Part shown: piece after piece, positions 3,385 to 30,828 of the stretch
Position numbering within the stretch: the stretch's first letter is position 1
How the letters are laid out: each line of letters opens with the position of its first letter
Source: Lachnospiraceae bacterium
GTDB taxonomy: Bacteria > Bacillota > Clostridia > Lachnospirales > Lachnospiraceae
Reading direction: 5' to 3'
DNA length: 35,136 bases
NCBI GenBank assembly: GCA_016281275.1
Contig: JAEEIH010000038.1
Location: 1 to 35,136, forward strand
Program-made: the position numbers and the translations under genes
Notes under the pieces: model-generated
Seen by the model: the letters and a program-made list of their open reading frames with translations, nothing else
Database searches by the model: none
What the model was told of the DNA's origin: nothing

Positions 3385-3439
3385 GGCAGTGATAACATTG
3401 CGCTACGGCAAAATACTTTCCGCACACTGTGCAGAGACG

Positions 3440-3551
3440 GCATTATGTCGCGGTAGTATTATGTCGTGGCAGTATTGAGTCGCGACAGTATTATGTCGCG
3501 GCAGTATTATGTCGCGATAGTATTATGTCGAGACGGTATTATGCAGCGGCG
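3440..3551. repeat. Seven tandem copies of a 16-bp unit
   Basis: Seven head-to-tail units of exactly 16 bp fill this stretch, with consensus GTATTATGTCGCGGCA. Units start at 3440, 3456, 3472, 3488, 3504, 3520 and 3536. The GTATTATGTCG core is best kept and the last five bases vary. The array lies between the 3' ends of two convergent genes, starting about 55 bp past the terminator and ending 16 bp from the AAA+ stop codon. Sixteen is not a multiple of three and no open frame uses it, so it is non-coding. No spacers separate the units, so it is not CRISPR. Confidence 0.92.
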
Positions 3552-5728: not shown

Positions 5729-5828
5729 CCCTTTCGTTTGTTCGCCTTTTCGAGCCCGTGTTTGTAGGGATCGATATAACCTTTCGTTTCTTCGGCTTTT
5801 CGAATCCGTGTTTGTAGGGATCGATATA
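5729..5828. repeat. 50-bp tandem duplication in the AAA+ gene leader
   Basis: Two head-to-tail 50-bp copies (5729-5778 and 5779-5828) differ at four positions. On the minus strand each copy ends in a GAAAGG Shine-Dalgarno-like sequence, but only the gene-proximal copy is followed by a usable ATG (5721). The duplication therefore lies in the 5' untranslated leader between the promoter at 5852-5880 and the start codon. It explains the spurious upstream extension of the reading frame. Confidence 0.9.
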
Positions 5829-11140: not shown

Positions 11141-11351
11141 GTGATATCCTGGGGTGTTCGATATTCCCGCGTTTTTGAACCTACATTACTTTAAAAGGGA
11201 TTCCGATATTTTTAAGTGGATGTCAGGCCGCCGGGTAAGCGGAAGGCAGAAGCTTAAGTGAGGTTACCCACCTAGCTTGGGGCTAGGAGTCAAAGATCGG
11301 GAGACGGCACTTTGGGGAACAATTTACGGGACTGATGTCCCGTATTTTTTT
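11141..11351 (+). ncRNA. ssrS: 6S RNA (SsrS-like), transcript possibly from about 11083
   Basis: 6S RNA mimics an open promoter and binds the sigma-A RNA polymerase holoenzyme. The candidate closing stem pairs TCCTGGGGTGTTCG (11147-11160) with the GGCACTTTGGGGA region (11306-11318), and CCCG (11166-11169) with CGGG (11298-11301). Inside are a hairpin built from ACTTTAAAA and TTTTTAAGT, and the CACCTAGC...GCTAGGAGTC hairpin (about 11270-11290) that I recall as typical of Firmicutes 6S RNAs. Length from the closing stem to the terminator is about 190-210 nt, the family size. Identification is by remembered consensus and fold, not a covariance search. It is not tmRNA, RNase P RNA or SRP RNA, whose conserved cores are absent. 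The 10947-11581 gap contains this RNA, its promoter and terminator, and the ftsH promoter. Confidence 0.72.
11326..11351 (+). terminator. Terminator of the 6S-like RNA
   Basis: ACGGGAC (11326-11332) and GTCCCGT (11337-11343) form a perfect 7-bp stem around TGAT, followed by A and seven T residues. It is a textbook intrinsic terminator and marks the 3' end of the structured RNA. Confidence 0.92.
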
Positions 11352-13982: not shown

Positions 13983-15815
13983 ATGTTTGATATAAGCGAA
14001 GAATTAAAAAAGCTTCCGGATAAGCCCGGGGTGTATATCATGCATGATGCCCCCGGTAATATAATCTATGTCGGAAAAGCAATCAGTCTGAAAAATCGCG
14101 TCCGGCAATATTTTCAAAAAAGAGTGCGCTCGCCCAAAATCGAGCGGATGATCTCACTTATTGACCATTTTGAGTATATAGTGGTGGACAGCGAGGTCGA
14201 GGCGCTCGTTCTGGAATGTAATCTGATAAAAGAAAACAGACCCAAGTACAACACAATGCTCATGGATGACAAATCCTACCCGTTCATAAAGGTGACGGTA
14301 GGTGAAGATTATCCGCGCGTATTTTTAACACATAATGTAAAAAAAGACGGATCGAAGTATTTCGGACCATATACGGATGTGGGTGCAGCGAAGAACGCGC
14401 TTGCGCTTCTTGACAACCTCTACGGACTTCGACCCTGCAGAAAGACCATTGAAAAAGGAAAGCTCTTAAAGCCGTGCCTTTATCATGACGTTCACAAGTG
14501 TAAGGCTCCGTGCGCGGGGCTCGTGAGTGATGAGGAATACGGTTCACTTGTGAAAAATGTCATTGAGTTCCTTTCGGGAAACGTTGCACCGATCAGAAAG
14601 AAGCTCAAAGAAGAGATGAAGGAAGCGTCCGACAGCCTCGAATTTGAGCGGGCGGCGCAGCTACGCGATCTGATCGCTGACATTGAGAGAGTGGTAAAGG
14701 CACAGAAAATAACTGCTTCCGACGACGGTGACAGAGATGTGATCGGTCTGGCCGTAAAGGATGACAGAGCTGTGGCGCAGGTCTTTTTTATCCGCAAGGG
14801 AAGAATGACGGGCAGGGAACACTTCTATCTGACCGAAGCAGGAGAGGAAACCCCGGAATCGCTCCTCGGGACATTTATAAAACAGTTCTATACCGGAAAC
14901 CCCAACATTCCGGGTAACATTCTTCTGCCCGGAGAGCCTGAGGAAAAGGAATCGCTCGAGGAGATACTGTCTGCTATGGCCGGTTATAAGGTTACGCTCA
15001 GGATTCCCGCGCGCGGTGACAAGGAAGGGCTCGTACGGCTGGCAGTCGATAATGCGAAGATGGTACTCGAAAAAGACCATGAAAGGCTTGAGAGTGAACA
15101 CGAAGGCGCGATGGATGCCCTCAGGGAGCTCGCAGGGCTTCTGGATATTGAGCCGCCGCGCAGGATTGAATCGTACGACATCTCGAACACGAGCGGCTTT
15201 GAATCCGTGGGTTCCATGGTTGTTCATGAAAACGGTAAGCCGAAAAAAAGCGACTACCGCAAGTTCCGGATCAGAACCGTCAAGGGTCCGGATGATTACG
15301 CATCGCTTGCGGAAGTTCTTCGCAGGAGACTCACCCACCGTGAACGCATCGCGGACGGGGATGATTCGTTTAGCGACTTCCCCGATCTCATCCTGATGGA
15401 TGGCGGACGAGGTCAGGTTAACGTGGCACTTGAGGTCATGGAAGAACTCGGACTTGATATCCGTGTCTGCGGGCTCGTAAAGGACGATCATCACAGGACA
15501 CGCGGGCTTTACTGTGACGGTGTGGAAGTACCTATCAGCATGAGGAGCGCTGCTTTTATGTTCATCACGAGGATCCAGGATGAGACCCACCGATTTGCGA
15601 TCGAATATCACAGAGAGCTTCGCTCGCGCGCACAGACGCGCTCGATCCTTGATGATATCCCGAATATCGGACCCAAGAGGCGGCGCGCACTCCTGAAAGC
15701 GTTCGGATCGCTTGAGGCGCTCCGCGATGCGGATCTGCGGACTATCGCTAATGTCGAAGGTATGACGGAGGCGGCAGCGCAGTCCGTATATGAATTTTTC
15801 CATGCGGAGAACTGA
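13983..15815 (+). CDS. uvrC: Excinuclease ABC subunit C
   Basis: UvrC makes the dual incision in nucleotide excision repair after UvrA/UvrB mark the damage. The 610-residue protein has the N-terminal GIY-YIG nuclease (KPGVYIMHD at 14-22, NIIYVGKA at 26-33), the UvrB-interacting UVR helix pair (about 205-236, LEFERAAQLRDLI), and the RNase H-like C-terminal nuclease (ESYDISNTSG and LILMDGGRGQV). Tandem helix-hairpin-helix motifs close it (about 555-607, IPNIGPKRRRALL and VEGMTEAAAQSV). Length is normal. Start 13983 follows GGGGGAAG; an in-frame ATG at 13941 lies upstream of the -10 box, so it is not used. No terminator is obvious before the repeat region that follows. Confidence 0.97.
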   Translation: MFDISEELKKLPDKPGVYIMHDAPGNIIYVGKAISLKNRVRQYFQKRVRSPKIERMISLIDHFEYIVVDSEVEALVLECNLIKENRPKYNTMLMDDKSYPFIKVTVGEDYPRVFLTHNVKKDGSKYFGPYTDVGAAKNALALLDNLYGLRPCRKTIEKGKLLKPCLYHDVHKCKAPCAGLVSDEEYGSLVKNVIEFLSGNVAPIRKKLKEEMKEASDSLEFERAAQLRDLIADIERVVKAQKITASDDGDRDVIGLAVKDDRAVAQVFFIRKGRMTGREHFYLTEAGEETPESLLGTFIKQFYTGNPNIPGNILLPGEPEEKESLEEILSAMAGYKVTLRIPARGDKEGLVRLAVDNAKMVLEKDHERLESEHEGAMDALRELAGLLDIEPPRRIESYDISNTSGFESVGSMVVHENGKPKKSDYRKFRIRTVKGPDDYASLAEVLRRRLTHRERIADGDDSFSDFPDLILMDGGRGQVNVALEVMEELGLDIRVCGLVKDDHHRTRGLYCDGVEVPISMRSAAFMFITRIQDETHRFAIEYHRELRSRAQTRSILDDIPNIGPKRRRALLKAFGSLEALRDADLRTIANVEGMTEAAAQSVYEFFHAEN

Positions 15816-15897
15816 GGCTGCTAACGTGATATACATACGTAATGTTCGGATTCAGGCAGGGGCTGCATTGATAGGTAACGTGGGGTTCGGATTTGGT

Positions 15898-15939
15898 ACA
15901 TGCGATTTTACACATGCGATTATGTACATGCGGCTTAGG
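15898..15939. repeat. Three 14-bp tandem repeats (ACATGCGATT type)
   Basis: ACATGCG recurs at 15898, 15912 and 15926, an exact 14-bp period, with consensus ACATGCGATTWTRY; the third copy is diverged. The block sits directly left of the larger palindromic element and overlaps its possible outer arm GGCTTAGGC (15932-15940). Nothing suggests coding. Confidence 0.7.
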
Positions 15940-15950
15940 CTACCACGTAC

Positions 15951-16054
15951 ATAATTCCCGGCGAACGCTCTCGCTTGCGTTTCACACGCAGCGGTACTAA
16001 GCGACGAAAGTACCGTCGCTAAGTGCCGGCGTGTTCAAGCATCCCGGGAATTAT
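15951..16054 (+). repeat. Branched palindromic element, left copy
   Basis: An 11-bp perfect outer stem, ATAATTCCCGG (15951-15961) with CCGGGAATTAT (16044-16054), encloses a small arm (AACGC...GCGTT, 15964-15981) and a long hairpin. In the long hairpin, ACACGC (15984-15989) pairs with GCGTGT (16029-16034), a two-base bulge follows, then GGTACTAAGCGACG (15993-16006) pairs with CGTCGCTAAGTGCC (16014-16027) with two mismatches. A further 9-bp arm GGCTTAGGC (15932-15940) can pair with GCCTAAGCC (16065-16073). A homologous copy in opposite orientation lies at 16336-16438. No gene is apparent. It could be a structured RNA or a MITE/REP-like repeat. Confidence 0.9.
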
Positions 16055-16065
16055 CTACGGGCGCG

Positions 16066-16281
16066 CCTAAGCCTTGCGGGGAAACCATCAGTTGAAATGG
16101 TGAAATAAACCGTAGTAGGGAAAAATTAATTGTCGTACCTAAGCCTTGCGGGGAAACCATCAGTTGAAATGGTGAAATAGACCGTAGTAGGGAAAAATTA
16201 ATTGTCGCACCTAAGCCTTGCGGGAAATTGCCAGTTGAAATAATAATACAAACTGTTGTAAAGGATATTGTCAATTTGTAA
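16066..16281. repeat. Three 72-bp tandem repeats between the inverted elements
   Basis: Units begin with CCTAAGCCTTGCGGG at 16066, 16138 and 16210, an exact 72-bp period. Units 1 and 2 differ at only two or three positions; unit 3 keeps the first 15 bp and CAGTTGAAAT and then decays. Each intact unit holds a small inverted repeat, ACCAT...ATGGT. Because 72 is divisible by three the minus strand stays open with a 24-residue repeat, but there is no ribosome binding site and I do not call it coding. The CCTAAGCC at each unit start is complementary to GGCTTAGG at 15932-15939. Confidence 0.92.
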
Positions 16282-16335
16282 TATATGGGTCCCAGACAAA
16301 TTGCAGTAAAGAAAATAGCCGGAGCGCGTCCGAAA

Positions 16336-16438
16336 ATCATTTCCGGAACGCTGGAGTACGTCGGCACTTAGCGACGGTATTTACGTCGCTTAGTACCGTT
16401 ACGTACGACCGCGAGCGAGAGCGTTTCGCGGAAATGAT
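16336..16438 (-). repeat. Branched palindromic element, right (inverted) copy
   Basis: This is the reverse-complement relative of the element at 15951-16054. The outer stem is ATCATTTCCG (16336-16345) with CGGAAATGAT (16429-16438), 10 bp and perfect. The inner hairpin is GTACGT (16356-16361) with ACGTAC (16401-16406), then GGCACTTAGCGACG (16363-16376) with CGTCGCTTAGTACC (16384-16397), with the same two-base bulge as the left copy. The inner core is nearly identical between copies, while the outer and lower stems have changed on both sides so that pairing is kept. The right end lies only about 5 bp from the putative addB -35 box. Confidence 0.9.
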
Positions 16439-16442
16439 ATTC

Positions 16443-16476
16443 GTGACAGCGAAGGCGTAAGAACTATATATATAAT
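16443..16476 (+). promoter_or_regulatory. Candidate promoter of addB
   Basis: GTGACA (16443-16448), a 16-bp spacer and TATATA (16465-16470) make a plausible promoter; an overlapping TATAAT lies at 16471-16476 but at too long a spacing. It starts immediately right of the inverted palindromic element, so folding or protein binding at that element could affect addB transcription. Confidence 0.5.
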
Positions 16477-16520
16477 TTCAGGTCTGCATAGCACGGAATA
16501 ATTCACACACGGAGGCGCGC

Positions 16521-19500
16521 ATGGCATTATTTCTTCACATCGGTCCGTCAGGCAGCGGTAAATCACACCGCCTCTTGCAGACCGTCATCACGGAAGCTTC
16601 AAAAGACGTCAACCGGAACGTCCTTCTTATAGTGCCTGAACAGGTGAGCATGCAGGCGACTGCGCAGCTCGTCTCGGCGCACCCCGGCCATACGATCATG
16701 AATGCGGATGTCCTGAGCTTCATGCGGCTCGCGTACCGCGTGTTCGACGAGCAGGGACGGAAGGTCCCGCTTGTGCTTGACGATACGGGCAAGAGCATGA
16801 TCGTGAAGAAGGTCGCGCTCGATATGGCGGACAAGCTTTCTGTCTATGCGGGACTTGTGCGGAGACAGGGCTTCATCGAAGAACTTAAATCACTGATCTG
16901 CGAATTTTATCAGTACGGGATAGATGACGAAACGATAGGGAAGATGCTCGAGGCAGCGGGTGAGAGCGACAGACTCCGCGCCAAGCTGTCTGACGTTCGC
17001 ACAGTCTTTAACGGATTCAGGGACTTCATAAAAGAACGATTCGTGATGAACGAGGAATTGCTGGACCTGCTTGGCGAGGCAGTCGGGCGGTCGGAGATCG
17101 TCAGAGGCAGTGTGCTTGCGTTCGACGGATTCACGGGCTTTACCGCTCCGCAGTATAGGCTTCTCGAAAGCCTGATGCGTGTAGCGTGCGACATGCATTT
17201 TAACGTCACGATCGATCCGGGACTCGATCCTTCTCTTGCGAGAAATTCGATGTTCGCGCTCAGTCGGGAGACCATTGATAAGCTGACGGAGCTTGCCGGC
17301 CTTACGGGACATAAGGTTATCATCGACTGCCCGAAGACGGAGGGAGTCCGCTTTGAGAACGAAGCTCTGGCGCATCTTGAGAAGAACGTTTTTCGCTATC
17401 CTTACAGCAAGAGAGACGGGCATGAGGGCATTGTGATAGCGACATGCGAGAGTACCGGTGTCGAGACCGCCTTCGTGATCACGCAGATAAAGCGACTGGT
17501 CAGGGAGGAGAAGCTTCATTATAAGGATATGGCTGTGGTCATAGCGGATATGCAAGGGCTCTCCGCTACGGTAGCCGCAGTTTTTGAAAAGGCAGGTATT
17601 TCCTGTTTCCTCGACTCGAAAAAGAACATTCTCGGAACGGCGCCGGTCGAGATGATTCGCGCAGCTATAAGCGTTGCGATCTCCGATTATTCGTACGAAA
17701 GTGTATTCAGGTTCATAAAAGCACTTCCTGCAGACATGCGCGCCGGTATGGAGAGTGTCGAAAACTTCGTGCGCGGCAGAGGGATCCGGGGAGCAGGAAG
17801 ATGGAAGAAAGAGTGGACCGGAAGTGTTTACAGGCATTATCAGACCGATCTTGCGGAACTGAACAGCAAAAGGGAGATGGTAGTGTCTCTACTTGAACCG
17901 TGCGTGAAGGTGCTTGCTTCAAAGAAGTCGACCGTCAGGGAGAGACTCGAAGCCCTGATGACGCTCTTGACGGAGTGCGGCGTGAAGGAAAAGCTCGAGC
18001 AGAGAGTCGAACTCATGCAGACCTCGACTGTTGCACAGGAGAGACTTGCTGCCCGTGAGGACGCACAGCTTTTCGAGTCGATCGAGACGGTGTTCGAGCA
18101 TGCGGACAACCTCCTCGGAACGGACGTTATCACCCTCAAGGAGTTCGGGGATATCCTCGATACGGGATTCTCGCGTCAGGAGCTTGCGCTCTTACCTCCT
18201 TCCTCGGACTGTATTTTGATCGGAGACATCGAACGAAGCAGGATTGCGGATGTAAAAGCGCTTTTTGTGATGGGGCTCGGGGACAATGTTATCCCGTCTA
18301 AAAGCGGAGCGAGCGGGATCCTTTCTGAGTCTGAAAGGGATCTCTTGTACAACTGCAATATCACGCTTTCGCCCACACGCAGGCAGGCCATACTCAGCAG
18401 TGAATTTTATCTGTATCTTTGTCTTTCCAAGCCGTCAAGTCGGCTTTTCCTGAGCTTTCATGAGGGAACGGACGGAGACGCCCGGATAAGACCGGCCTAC
18501 GTTCTGGGTGCGGTTAAAAAAGTTTATAAGGATTTTTGTGAGACCAAGGTCAGAAAAGACAGCCCGGAGATCGCAGTCGGAGCTGACGGTGGGGAAGCGT
18601 TCTTTGCCCGCTTTGTAAAGGAAAAGAAGATCGAGCTTTCACAGACGGAACTCGCAGTGCTCGAGTCGGTCAGAAAGGATTCACCCGAAATTTTCGAGAG
18701 AGCGATCGAGGGCGCTTTTTACAAGACCGGAGGCAGGGACATTACTCCCGAAACAGCCGAGAAGATCTACGGCGACGTGATCGTGGGAAGCGTAACGTCG
18801 CTTGAAAAATATGCGTCATGTGCGTACTCGTACTTCATCAGGTACGGTCTCAGATGCGAGGATGAGCAGGAGTTCGCGATCGGAAGTGTCGAAATCGGAA
18901 ATATATACCACAAGGCGCTCGAGCTCTACGGAGGACTTTTAAAAGAGAGCGGACACACGTGGCACGATGAGGTCGGTGACGAAGCGCGCGGCGGGATGGT
19001 GACGGAGGCTTCACGTCTGGCTACGGGAGAGTACGGGGAACTGATCGAGGACAGCGCGAGAAACCGTTATGTGAGAACTCGTGTCGAGAAGGTGCTTTCC
19101 TTTACTGTCAGGACGATAGAGGCTCAGGTCAGGGCCGGAAGCTTTGAGCCGACATTCTTTGAGAAGAGCTTCAGAGCAGCCGATGAGTTCATGAACCTTT
19201 CGGGCAAGATTGACAGGATCGATGTCGCCAAGAGGAAGGGGAGAACATTCCTGCGAGTTGTTGACTACAAGACGGGAAACCGAGAGTTCGACCTTAACCT
19301 TCTTTATCACGGTCTTCAGGTTCAGCTCGCGCTCTACGCGAAAGTCGCGCGTGAGAGTATTGTAAGGGATGCCGGAATAGCCGGCGCTTATTACTACAAG
19401 ATCGACGACCCGATCGTCGAGGGCTCCCAGGAGATGACCGAAGAGGAACTTTTCAAAAAGAAAACGGAGGAACAGAAGCTTAAAGGACCCTCGGACAGGG

Positions 19501-19895
19501 AGCCCGCGAAGCTTATCTGTCTCGATAGGGGATTTGACGGCGGAGGTGAAGAAGATTCGCTTGCTTCGTCCTACAGGTCGTCCGTTGTCAGTGTCAAGAC
19601 CAACAAGGACATGACGCTTGACTCCAAATCGAAGGTCCTTGCAGAGGAGCAGTTCGATCAGGTCTTCGGACATGTCGACAGCCTCTTCAGAAACTGCGCG
19701 GAGGGAATCCGCGCCGGAAAGATCAAGCGTGACCCGTACAGGTACGGAAAAAAGACGGCCTGTGAGTACTGCACTTACAGCGGAATCTGCGGTTTCGATT
19801 CGAGGATGGGTGACGGATATCGGATTATAGAGAAGCTTTCGGACGGTGAGATCATGCAGAAGATCGCGCAGGAAAAAAAGAAGATTGAAGAATAA
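16521..19895 (+). CDS. addB: ATP-dependent helicase/nuclease subunit B (AddB)
   Basis: AddB joins AddA to form the Firmicutes counterpart of RecBCD, which resects double-strand breaks to a Chi-like site for RecA loading. The 1124-residue protein matches family size. It has an N-terminal Walker A, GPSGSGKS at 8-15, on a degenerate helicase body, and a C-terminal RecB-type nuclease (VVDYKTG with D915 and K917). The iron-sulfur cluster ligands are visible as C767 (YASCAYSYF) and the CEYCTYSGIC cluster (C1081, C1084, C1090). GGAGG at 16511-16515 sets the start. AddA follows after 155 bp rather than overlapping, a slightly looser arrangement than usual. Confidence 0.95.
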   Translation: MALFLHIGPSGSGKSHRLLQTVITEASKDVNRNVLLIVPEQVSMQATAQLVSAHPGHTIMNADVLSFMRLAYRVFDEQGRKVPLVLDDTGKSMIVKKVALDMADKLSVYAGLVRRQGFIEELKSLICEFYQYGIDDETIGKMLEAAGESDRLRAKLSDVRTVFNGFRDFIKERFVMNEELLDLLGEAVGRSEIVRGSVLAFDGFTGFTAPQYRLLESLMRVACDMHFNVTIDPGLDPSLARNSMFALSRETIDKLTELAGLTGHKVIIDCPKTEGVRFENEALAHLEKNVFRYPYSKRDGHEGIVIATCESTGVETAFVITQIKRLVREEKLHYKDMAVVIADMQGLSATVAAVFEKAGISCFLDSKKNILGTAPVEMIRAAISVAISDYSYESVFRFIKALPADMRAGMESVENFVRGRGIRGAGRWKKEWTGSVYRHYQTDLAELNSKREMVVSLLEPCVKVLASKKSTVRERLEALMTLLTECGVKEKLEQRVELMQTSTVAQERLAAREDAQLFESIETVFEHADNLLGTDVITLKEFGDILDTGFSRQELALLPPSSDCILIGDIERSRIADVKALFVMGLGDNVIPSKSGASGILSESERDLLYNCNITLSPTRRQAILSSEFYLYLCLSKPSSRLFLSFHEGTDGDARIRPAYVLGAVKKVYKDFCETKVRKDSPEIAVGADGGEAFFARFVKEKKIELSQTELAVLESVRKDSPEIFERAIEGAFYKTGGRDITPETAEKIYGDVIVGSVTSLEKYASCAYSYFIRYGLRCEDEQEFAIGSVEIGNIYHKALELYGGLLKESGHTWHDEVGDEARGGMVTEASRLATGEYGELIEDSARNRYVRTRVEKVLSFTVRTIEAQVRAGSFEPTFFEKSFRAADEFMNLSGKIDRIDVAKRKGRTFLRVVDYKTGNREFDLNLLYHGLQVQLALYAKVARESIVRDAGIAGAYYYKIDDPIVEGSQEMTEEELFKKKTEEQKLKGPSDREPAKLICLDRGFDGGGEEDSLASSYRSSVVSVKTNKDMTLDSKSKVLAEEQFDQVFGHVDSLFRNCAEGIRAGKIKRDPYRYGKKTACEYCTYSGICGFDSRMGDGYRIIEKLSDGEIMQKIAQEKKKIEE

Positions 19896-30180: not shown

Positions 30181-30699
30181 ATGGAAAAAATCGCACAGTT
30201 TCAGAAGGTTTCACCCGAAAAATTCGTTGAAGCCGCAGTCGAAATGCTTGATTTGACCGAGTCTGAGGCGCTGTGCGCATTTGAATCGATCGTTCTTCCG
30301 AGAAGAGCAACCACGGGGAGCGCAGGGTATGATTTTTTTGCTCCCTCGACCATAAAGCTCGAGCCCGGACAGTCGTTGCGCGTTCCGACAGGGATCAGAG
30401 CGCGTATCGACGAAGGATGGGTGCTGATGCTCTATCCGAGAAGCGGACTCGGATTCAAGTTCGGTATGAGGTTAAATAACACGGTCGGAGTCATCGACAG
30501 TGATTATTTCTTTTCAGATAACGAAGGTCATATCATCGCCGGGATCACGAACGGTTCAAGCGACAAAACTCTCGTCATTGATCCGGGAAAAGGATTCATG
30601 CAGGGTGTTTTCTCGAGATTCGGGATTACTGTGGATGATGATGCGGACGGTGTTCGCAACGGGGGTATGGGGAGTACGACCGAAAGAAATCAGCAGTAA
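30181..30699 (+). CDS. dut: dUTP diphosphatase
   Basis: Dut hydrolyses dUTP to dUMP and pyrophosphate, keeping uracil out of DNA and supplying thymidylate synthesis. The 172-residue protein has all five trimeric dUTPase motifs: RATTGSAGYD (42-51), PRSGLGFK (86-93), NNTVGVIDSDYF (99-110, catalytic D106), DPGKGFMQGVFSRFG (134-148) and a C-terminal RNGGMGST (159-166). In the last one a Met replaces the usual Phe that stacks on uracil. A 40-residue N-terminal extension and a few extra residues around DSDYFFSDNEGH make it longer than the roughly 145-residue norm. The start has ACGGGGA upstream. Confidence 0.92.
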   Translation: MEKIAQFQKVSPEKFVEAAVEMLDLTESEALCAFESIVLPRRATTGSAGYDFFAPSTIKLEPGQSLRVPTGIRARIDEGWVLMLYPRSGLGFKFGMRLNNTVGVIDSDYFFSDNEGHIIAGITNGSSDKTLVIDPGKGFMQGVFSRFGITVDDDADGVRNGGMGSTTERNQQ

Positions 30700-30705
30700 A
30701 AACAC

Positions 30706-30828
30706 GCCGCTAAAGAAAAAACCGGTACATAGTCGAGTATTGGGAAAGGAATCGGCGGCAAAAAACTGCCGCCAAAGAAAAACCGGTACATAGTCGAGTA
30801 TTGGGAAAGGAAACAGCGGCAAAGAGGA
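30706..30828. repeat. 62-bp tandem duplication upstream of ddh
   Basis: Two head-to-tail copies (from 30706 and 30768) share about 50 bp of near-identity, including the block CCGGTACATAGTCGAGTATT and GGGAAAGGAA. The junction carries a hairpin, GGCGGCA (30754-30760) with TGCCGCC (30767-30773). The array sits between the dut stop and the AGAGGAGA ribosome binding site of ddh. It is non-coding and could act as a leader or as a read-through terminator. Confidence 0.88.

Follow-up and report, generated by a model that had tools for sequence, protein, structure and literature searches.

The window analysed here is a 35,136-nucleotide stretch of a contig from a Lachnospiraceae bacterium, and the feature under study lies between two of its genes, uvrC and addB, where two branched palindromes in mirror orientation flank a short tandem array. 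An earlier note, made from the sequence alone, had placed the two copies at 15951-16054 and 16336-16438, and both were found exactly there, on (+) and (-) respectively; the units recognised by a covariance model built on 24 copies (R1) extend somewhat beyond those limits (15932-16071 and 16319-16457). The parts of the locus are as follows, the strand of a full module being the one that bears its GNRA-type loop:

13983-15815, plus strand: uvrC, flanking gene outside the element (Pfam UvrC domains)
15816-16520: intergenic region between uvrC and addB, enlarged to 705 bp by the insertion
15932-16071, minus strand: module 1, full modelled branched palindrome (R1, 120.8 bits; shuffle z, -7.3)
15951-16054: module 1 core, with outer stem ATAATTCCCGG/CCGGGAATTAT (read from the sequence)
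15967-15974, minus strand: module 1 mini-arm, GC-GAGA-GC on the minus strand, GNRA type (read from the sequence, with family statistics)
15984-16034: module 1 long arm, with a two-base bulge and a TTA-type internal loop
16062-16224: 72-bp tandem array between the modules, 2.3 copies
16319-16457, plus strand: module 2, whole branched palindrome as modelled, in the opposite orientation to module 1 (R1, 122.8 bits; shuffle z, -7.8)
16336-16438: module 2 core, with outer stem ATCATTTCCG and its partner (read from the sequence)
16356-16406: module 2 long arm
16415-16422, plus strand: module 2 mini-arm, GC-GAGA-GC on the plus strand, GNRA type
16521-19895, plus strand: addB, flanking gene outside the element (Pfam ADDB_N)

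The common fold that had been proposed for the two copies was borne out. The z values listed above refer to RNA folding against dinucleotide-preserving shuffles; DNA folding gave z values of -6.5 to -6.9 on each strand, and in every RNA or DNA test 0 of 200 shuffles folded as well as the real copies. A letter-by-letter check recovered all five paired substitutions described between the copies, two in the outer stem (ATAATTCCCGG versus ATCATTTCCG) and three at the base of the long arm (ACACGC versus GTACGT), with the partner strand altered each time. The composite is gene-free, as claimed, and its sole open reading frame (ORF) of at least 60 amino acids (110 amino acids, minus strand, 16035-16367) had no Pfam match at E ≤ 0.01. 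The repeats of the 72-bp array show 95% matches, and a degenerate third unit extends to about 16260. No homologue of the array was found at E ≤ 0.01 among 503 other fetched loci, and a likeness of its unit to the L099/L163 spacer was not significant. Module 1 is adjoined by three copies of GATTTGGTACATGCG at 14-bp spacing (15890-15932). Elsewhere in the window, further short tandem arrays occupy 3434-3550, 5730-5828, and 30682-30823 (periods of 16/48, 50, and 61 bp, respectively), and a 6S RNA gene, whose relatives form the RNA control set used below, lies at 11143-11322.

When a covariance model was built and searched over this genome and the Lachnospiraceae, as the earlier note had suggested, homologues proved abundant. 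A blastn search with copy 2 gave 12 matches in the window's genome and matched 8 of 24 genomes of the genus; with R1 at E ≤ 0.01 the figures were 33 matches and 13 of 24 genomes. At least 118 of 299 Lachnospiraceae genomes (298 genera) contained matches at E ≤ 1e-4, and in a class-wide search at least 7 of 291 genomes did, every one of them from the Lachnospiraceae. The family and class counts are lower bounds, with about 10 candidates scored per genome under stricter filters; the class listing shows 10 genomes of the same family, and 264 genomes without a match are absent from that listing. Fuller counts gave 80 matches in genome G060 and at least 128 in G290, the latter from 150 scored candidates out of 414. 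Eleven loci gave no Rfam match at E ≤ 5, nothing in Rfam reached its gathering score on the element stretch of the window, and in the plasmid and phage collections no DNA match was found to the window stretch, nor in the plasmid collection to an element of G210. As far as tested, the family is confined to the Lachnospiraceae. It is large and apparently undescribed, with no counterpart seen in the Rfam search or among the papers listed by the literature searches; microbiome surveys of candidate structured RNAs may include it under a different name.

The elements are mobile. At the uvrC-addB junction, where the earlier note had called for empty-site alleles in related strains, five relatives (G002, G007, G022, G019, and G015) lack the insertion: their two genes lie about 140 bp or less apart, with no module match in between. 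Among the nine relatives whose loci were tried, these five aligned cleanly at both genes, three aligned partly, and one could not be placed; loci L005, L006, L007, L008, and L011 represent the same junctions of G002, G007, G015, G019, and G022 and were counted once. Elements of G060 measuring about 497 bp, with 89-99.8% identity among them, lie at unrelated sites with sharp ends TAAACTGYAGTTTA, and single-module units are present as well (L373). A second type of end, AGGTAATTGYGAAACT, defines what is here called the AATTG subfamily, and the corresponding terminal pattern AATTGYGAAACTY had 94 matches in six genomes from six genera, versus 1 for the reversed pattern. Direct target repeats (score of at least 8.5) were present at 26 of 36 elements of this subfamily, versus a mean of 0.025 and a maximum of 1 in 200 shuffles of the flanks; among the 15 elements scoring at least 10, repeat lengths were 10-15. 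Two truncated elements, L404 and L405, which lack the long arm or the whole head, still have direct repeats. In a search for duplications outside the AATTG subfamily, 158 flank pairs, including that of the window composite, yielded 4 candidates (control, 1 of 173), of which 2 belonged to the AATTG subfamily after all and 2 were the G060 terminal motif itself.

Termini differ between genera, while the general properties of a miniature inverted-repeat transposable element (MITE) recur: short, non-coding, dispersed copies, sites occupied in one genome and empty in another, and terminal inverted repeats in the form of AATTGYGAAACTY in six genera and TAAACTGYAGTTTA in G060. Target duplications, together with a parent element that has the same ends, were found in the AATTG subfamily only. 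The MITE/REP-like option raised in the earlier note is supported, in its MITE-like form, by the dispersed copies, by the empty site of the relatives, and by the one subfamily in which terminal inverted repeats and target duplications go together with an insertion sequence that has the same ends. A separate observation concerns the insertion points. At the 32 element boundaries inspected in G060 (L257-L266 and L363-L382), an ORF of at least 100 codons runs into 23, and in 18 of these 23 the first TAA of the element is the exact stop codon (P of about 1e-5 for a random frame). At L261, a tmRNA gene occupies 980-1336, and the element begins at the next base, 1337. Beside an IS1182-like insertion sequence at L468 (350-380), a 76-amino-acid ORF stops with TAG exactly at the end of the insertion sequence, which again hints at insertion into stop codons.

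Composites like that of the window are inverted dimers around a spacer, and the units also occur singly. Among 30 pairs of modules less than 600 bp apart, 27 had the arrangement (+,-), the window composite included, 3 were (+,+), and 0 were (-,+). Where modules lie far apart, in L168 and L272, chromosomal genes separate them. At one orthologous site, the head in G000 (L110) and that in G002 (L186) are nearly identical and sit in opposite orientations with respect to flanks that share 82-88% identity; another such site holds a dimer in G000 and one module in both G002 and G007.

A candidate source of movement was found for the AATTG subfamily. A scan of viral contigs for its terminus gave 36 matches, 2 of which (L468 and L477) hold a transposase. 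In L468, both ends lie 1.79 kb apart around a 485-amino-acid ORF, whose product matches DUF772 above the Pfam cut-off and DDE models below theirs (DDE_Tnp_1, PF01609, 18.9 bits with a cut-off of 23); the best NCBIfam model, IS1182, scored 68.4 bits, under its cut-off of 270, and on these protein scores the matching insertion sequences appear to be distant relatives only of IS1182. Relatives of the transposase occur on another viral contig (80% identical in a protein scan), on the viral contig of L477 (64%), and on plasmids of Roseburia (81%), Butyrivibrio (66%), and Agathobacter (75%, a fragment); full-length relatives among the fetched loci were confined to viral and plasmid loci, and none was found in the phage collection. 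Both AATTG-type ends are present at five of the six transposase loci, 1750-1794 bp apart, and L514 has one end only. Compared with the 17-letter terminus, each two-ended insertion sequence has one end with 0 or 2 mismatches and another with 3 to 5; the weaker end of L513 taken alone is not significant (P = 0.14). Exact direct repeats of 11, 10, and 15 bp flank three of the five two-ended copies, and none was seen at L477 or L512. The branched head was found at none of the six transposase loci. Judged by its ends, the AATTG subfamily is a MITE of an IS1182-like insertion sequence, to which the head is an extra. The AATTG transposase would not need the head, because truncated, head-less elements carry direct repeats and the matching insertion sequences lack it.

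Other candidates for the moving enzyme or the autonomous element were set aside. Transposases with PF01609 (DDE_Tnp_1) are present in four of eight genomes and not in G210, a result compatible with the IS1182-like transposase, which falls below the cut-off of that model. Two end motifs 4.2 kb apart in G210 (contig C22) proved to be two separate short elements around chromosomal genes. No long element was seen at unpaired end motifs of G210, where 20 stretches were searched for a mate, four of them by eye; four G210 contigs end within an element. One-sided end motifs at 3 of 56 transposase loci (L391, L395, and L484) were attributed to chance, as was a weak match to the model (23.7 bits) close to a DDE gene at L479.

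What the elements share is the head. A family-level alignment of 60 distinct copies from 40 genomes in 40 genera (A4) supports 42 pairs, 41 of which show changes on both sides, so that covariation limited to the two window copies, named in the earlier note as grounds for abandoning its idea, was not what was found. In A4, 92% of paired cells are complementary, versus 28-40% with the partners slid by 1-3 columns, a comparison to be read with the alignment having been fitted to the model; the number of pair types is not above that of shuffles (109 of 500). The head is a three-way junction. Its long arm ends in a 7-nucleotide loop and bears a TTA-type internal loop and a two-base bulge; its mini-arm has two pairs, and 54 of 58 copies show a mini-arm loop of GNRA type on one of the strands (77 of 94 in a looser automatic parse of the genus set). 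Seven unpaired head positions show 98-100% identity across 58 copies. Mean conservation is no higher in unpaired head columns (0.71) than in paired ones (0.72), and it is 0.42-0.44 in the columns of the stalk, whose sequence is variable and nonetheless largely complementary. The two arms of a copy resemble each other (mean of 0.81 at the family level) more than the same arm resembles its counterparts in other copies (0.43), and in 56 of 57 family-level copies no arm matched better than the copy's own other arm. The corresponding figures were 0.89, 0.69, and 23 of 23 in G290, and 0.77, 0.60, and only 51 of 67 in the genus set. Three G290 elements (L491, L500, and L507) have palindrome arms of about 55 bp that are near-perfect within a copy and clearly unlike between copies.

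Departures from the common head were also seen. In L403, L415, and L418 (from G210 and G193), a second head-like stretch, recognised by eye, is nested in the long arm, inside its internal loop, at an identical position in the two genera. Other variant heads have one more arm inserted, have a long arm of another kind, or are plain hairpins; their lengths are about 200 nucleotides (L149, L151, L167, L181, and L192), about 155 nucleotides (L152-L156, L165, and L166), or 71-123 nucleotides (L157-L160); their terminal block GCGCCCG/CGTGGCAG is much alike.

The earlier note took the paired changes to mean selection on the folding of DNA or RNA. According to PMC8794818 and PMC8604942, template switching between DNA arms yields perfect paired changes without selection; it also makes inverted arms uniform and can flip the stretch that they enclose. 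Paired changes alone are therefore no proof of selection, because template switching can produce them. That part of the claim was too strong; what argues for selection is the set of seven near-invariant unpaired head positions, with the column averages showing no excess. Whether DNA or RNA is constrained can be read from the mismatches tolerated in the stems. Across three sets, the counts of G.T to A.C were 25:11, 54:34, and 51:62, so that wobble pairs are rare and symmetric between strands. In an RNA control of 29 6S RNAs from the same bacterial family, aligned and folded with the same script, G.U made up 16.3% and A.C 0.5% of cells, a ratio of 30 (3.6 on the antisense strand, over only 18 pairs), whereas in the elements G.U made up 2.1-5.5% and A.C 1.2-2.8%, a ratio of 1.3-2.3 on either strand. 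Of 144 copies, 60 lay between tandem genes, 19 between convergent and 16 between divergent ones, 23 overlapped an ORF call, and 26 had no usable flanks; orientation relative to the tandem genes was 31:29, with no bias. The structural constraint is read as acting at the DNA level because pairing is near-pure Watson-Crick and strand-symmetric and orientation is unbiased, and these observations point to DNA rather than RNA.

Four other accounts of the family were weighed. The elements could encode a structured RNA, whether a small RNA, a cis-regulator, or an omega/bridge-type guide RNA of a transposon, that spread with a transposon. The elaborate conserved fold, the strong covariation, the GNRA-type loop seen on one strand in most copies, and a tandem GA/GA seen by eye beside the long arm on the GNRA strand would all suit such an RNA. 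GNRA-like loops are, however, stable in DNA too, and neither a tolerance of G.U on one strand nor, at E ≤ 5 in 11 loci, a match to a described Rfam family was found; with the low wobble ratio and the even orientation, these results make the structured-RNA option of the earlier note very unlikely. Repeats of the REP/REPIN type, for which a Y1 (RAYT/IS200-like) transposase mobilises single-stranded hairpins, have in common with the present family that they are hairpin-ended, high-copy, intergenic palindromes occurring singly or as inverted dimers (PMC3733652 and PMC2817692). Moreover, many modules in G000 and its neighbours lie within an inverted GGGGACGGGGGTTGTGG repeat that is also found near a Y1 gene in G002, and CTGTAG/CTACAG occurs in the G060 termini. 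The present units are, however, branched and about 140-208 bp long, as against palindromes of 20-40 bp, and no palindrome of 20-40 nucleotides with a GTAG or CGTC tag was recognised, the GTAG of G060 lying inside its terminus. Of 20 element-bearing genomes, 11 have no Y1 gene, among them G060 (96% complete, 80 matches), and G000 and G004 lack one as well; within the genus it is present in 3 of 13 genomes with the element versus 9 of 11 without; and the 24 tested (of 25) fetched Y1 loci of the genus have no module closer than about 1.5 kb. Target duplications, which are not expected of HUH transposition, are present in the AATTG subfamily, whose ends are those of a DDE insertion sequence. A Y1/RAYT enzyme was accordingly rejected as the general mover, and we consider this account highly improbable. 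The inverted repeat GGGGACGGGGGTTGTGGTCCA that lies near the Y1 (RAYT-like) gene at L209 (G002, contig C43) and around many G000 modules is probably a separate REP family.

Inverted terminal repeats (ITRs) of the AAV type have a long stem with two small arms and stand in inverted orientation at both ends of an element. A parvovirus-type replicon with such T-shaped hairpin ends, whose rolling-hairpin copying would give flip and flop heads and perfect arms, would explain the branched palindromes at both dimer ends in one prevailing arrangement, the inverted head at the orthologous site of G000 and G002, and the concerted arms within a copy. The present elements are, by contrast, chromosomal bacterial repeats, and single-module elements with target duplications are common, so that two ends are unnecessary; the ends of single-module elements match a DDE insertion sequence, and inversion with homogenised arms is also expected from template switching (PMC8604942). 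This origin appears extremely unlikely. Somewhat better placed, and still unlikely, is a DNA structure useful to the host, such as a transcription barrier, a replication pause, or a nucleoid site, carried on the ends of several transposons and kept for its head. In its favour, the head is common across genera while the termini differ, it is missing from insertion sequences with matching termini, and the G060 elements coincide with stop codons and, once, with the end of a tmRNA gene. Against it, matches were found in only 118 of 299 family genomes (a lower bound), copy numbers are very uneven, orthologous sites are empty, and orientation shows no preference.

Bacterial imperfect palindromic repeats of roughly 100-200 bp include ERIC, BOX, RUP, and Correia/NEMIS. 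To our knowledge these belong to other lineages, and they are set apart from the present family here by description, not by sequence. QMITE2 is likewise an imperfect palindromic bacterial repeat of roughly 100-200 bp, as outlined in PMC10969869. As described there, MITEs are short, non-coding, dispersed, and able to form stem-loops, all of which the present family shares, and the AATTG subfamily adds terminal repeats and target duplications in common with a full insertion sequence. The family differs from MITEs in its conserved three-way-junction head, which spans 40 sampled genera, has differing termini, and is not found in the matching insertion sequences. Those insertion sequences (IS1182-like, with DUF772 and DDE matches) have the termini of the AATTG subfamily and, in three of five full copies, direct repeats of 10-15 bp, whereas they measure 1.75-1.79 kb, encode a transposase of about 485 amino acids, and lack the branched head.

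With a probability of roughly 0.78, the pair in the window is one dimeric copy of a non-autonomous, MITE-like DNA family. In this MITE-like family the unit would be a long DNA palindrome in which a variable stalk carries the conserved three-way-junction head. An IS1182-like DDE transposase would move the AATTG subfamily in trans, and subfamilies with other ends, that of the window included, would be moved by other transposases. Complementarity of the arms may be kept by DNA template switching or by copying of the hairpin form, and the head would be a passenger, retained as some factor other than that transposase recognises the folded DNA shape; the recogniser is placed apart from the parent transposase because the matching insertion sequences lack the head. 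More tentatively, and as a possibility we would rather doubt than assert, the head may be a constant DNA-shape module that has become attached to terminal repeats whose parent transposons vary from genus to genus, with the extruded three-way junction, not a linear sequence, being recognised by a separate factor. If true, this would account for the drift of the arms, the strand-symmetric complementarity, and the invariant loop and bulge positions, and also for the inversion of the head, the inverted dimers, and the changing ends across at least 40 genera.

The family also carries a warning, in that strong covariation, even with GNRA-type loops, can arise from DNA; the ratio of G.U to A.C against an RNA control tells DNA constraint from RNA constraint. 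In the Lachnospiraceae, major bacteria of the gut and rumen, it is mobile DNA that spans the family, often at very high copy number, and it provides a natural experiment in which the secondary structure of DNA, rather than RNA, has been under long-term constraint. With one module common to elements that differ in their transposon ends, the idea that a folded DNA shape can itself be the mobile, recognised unit becomes open to test.
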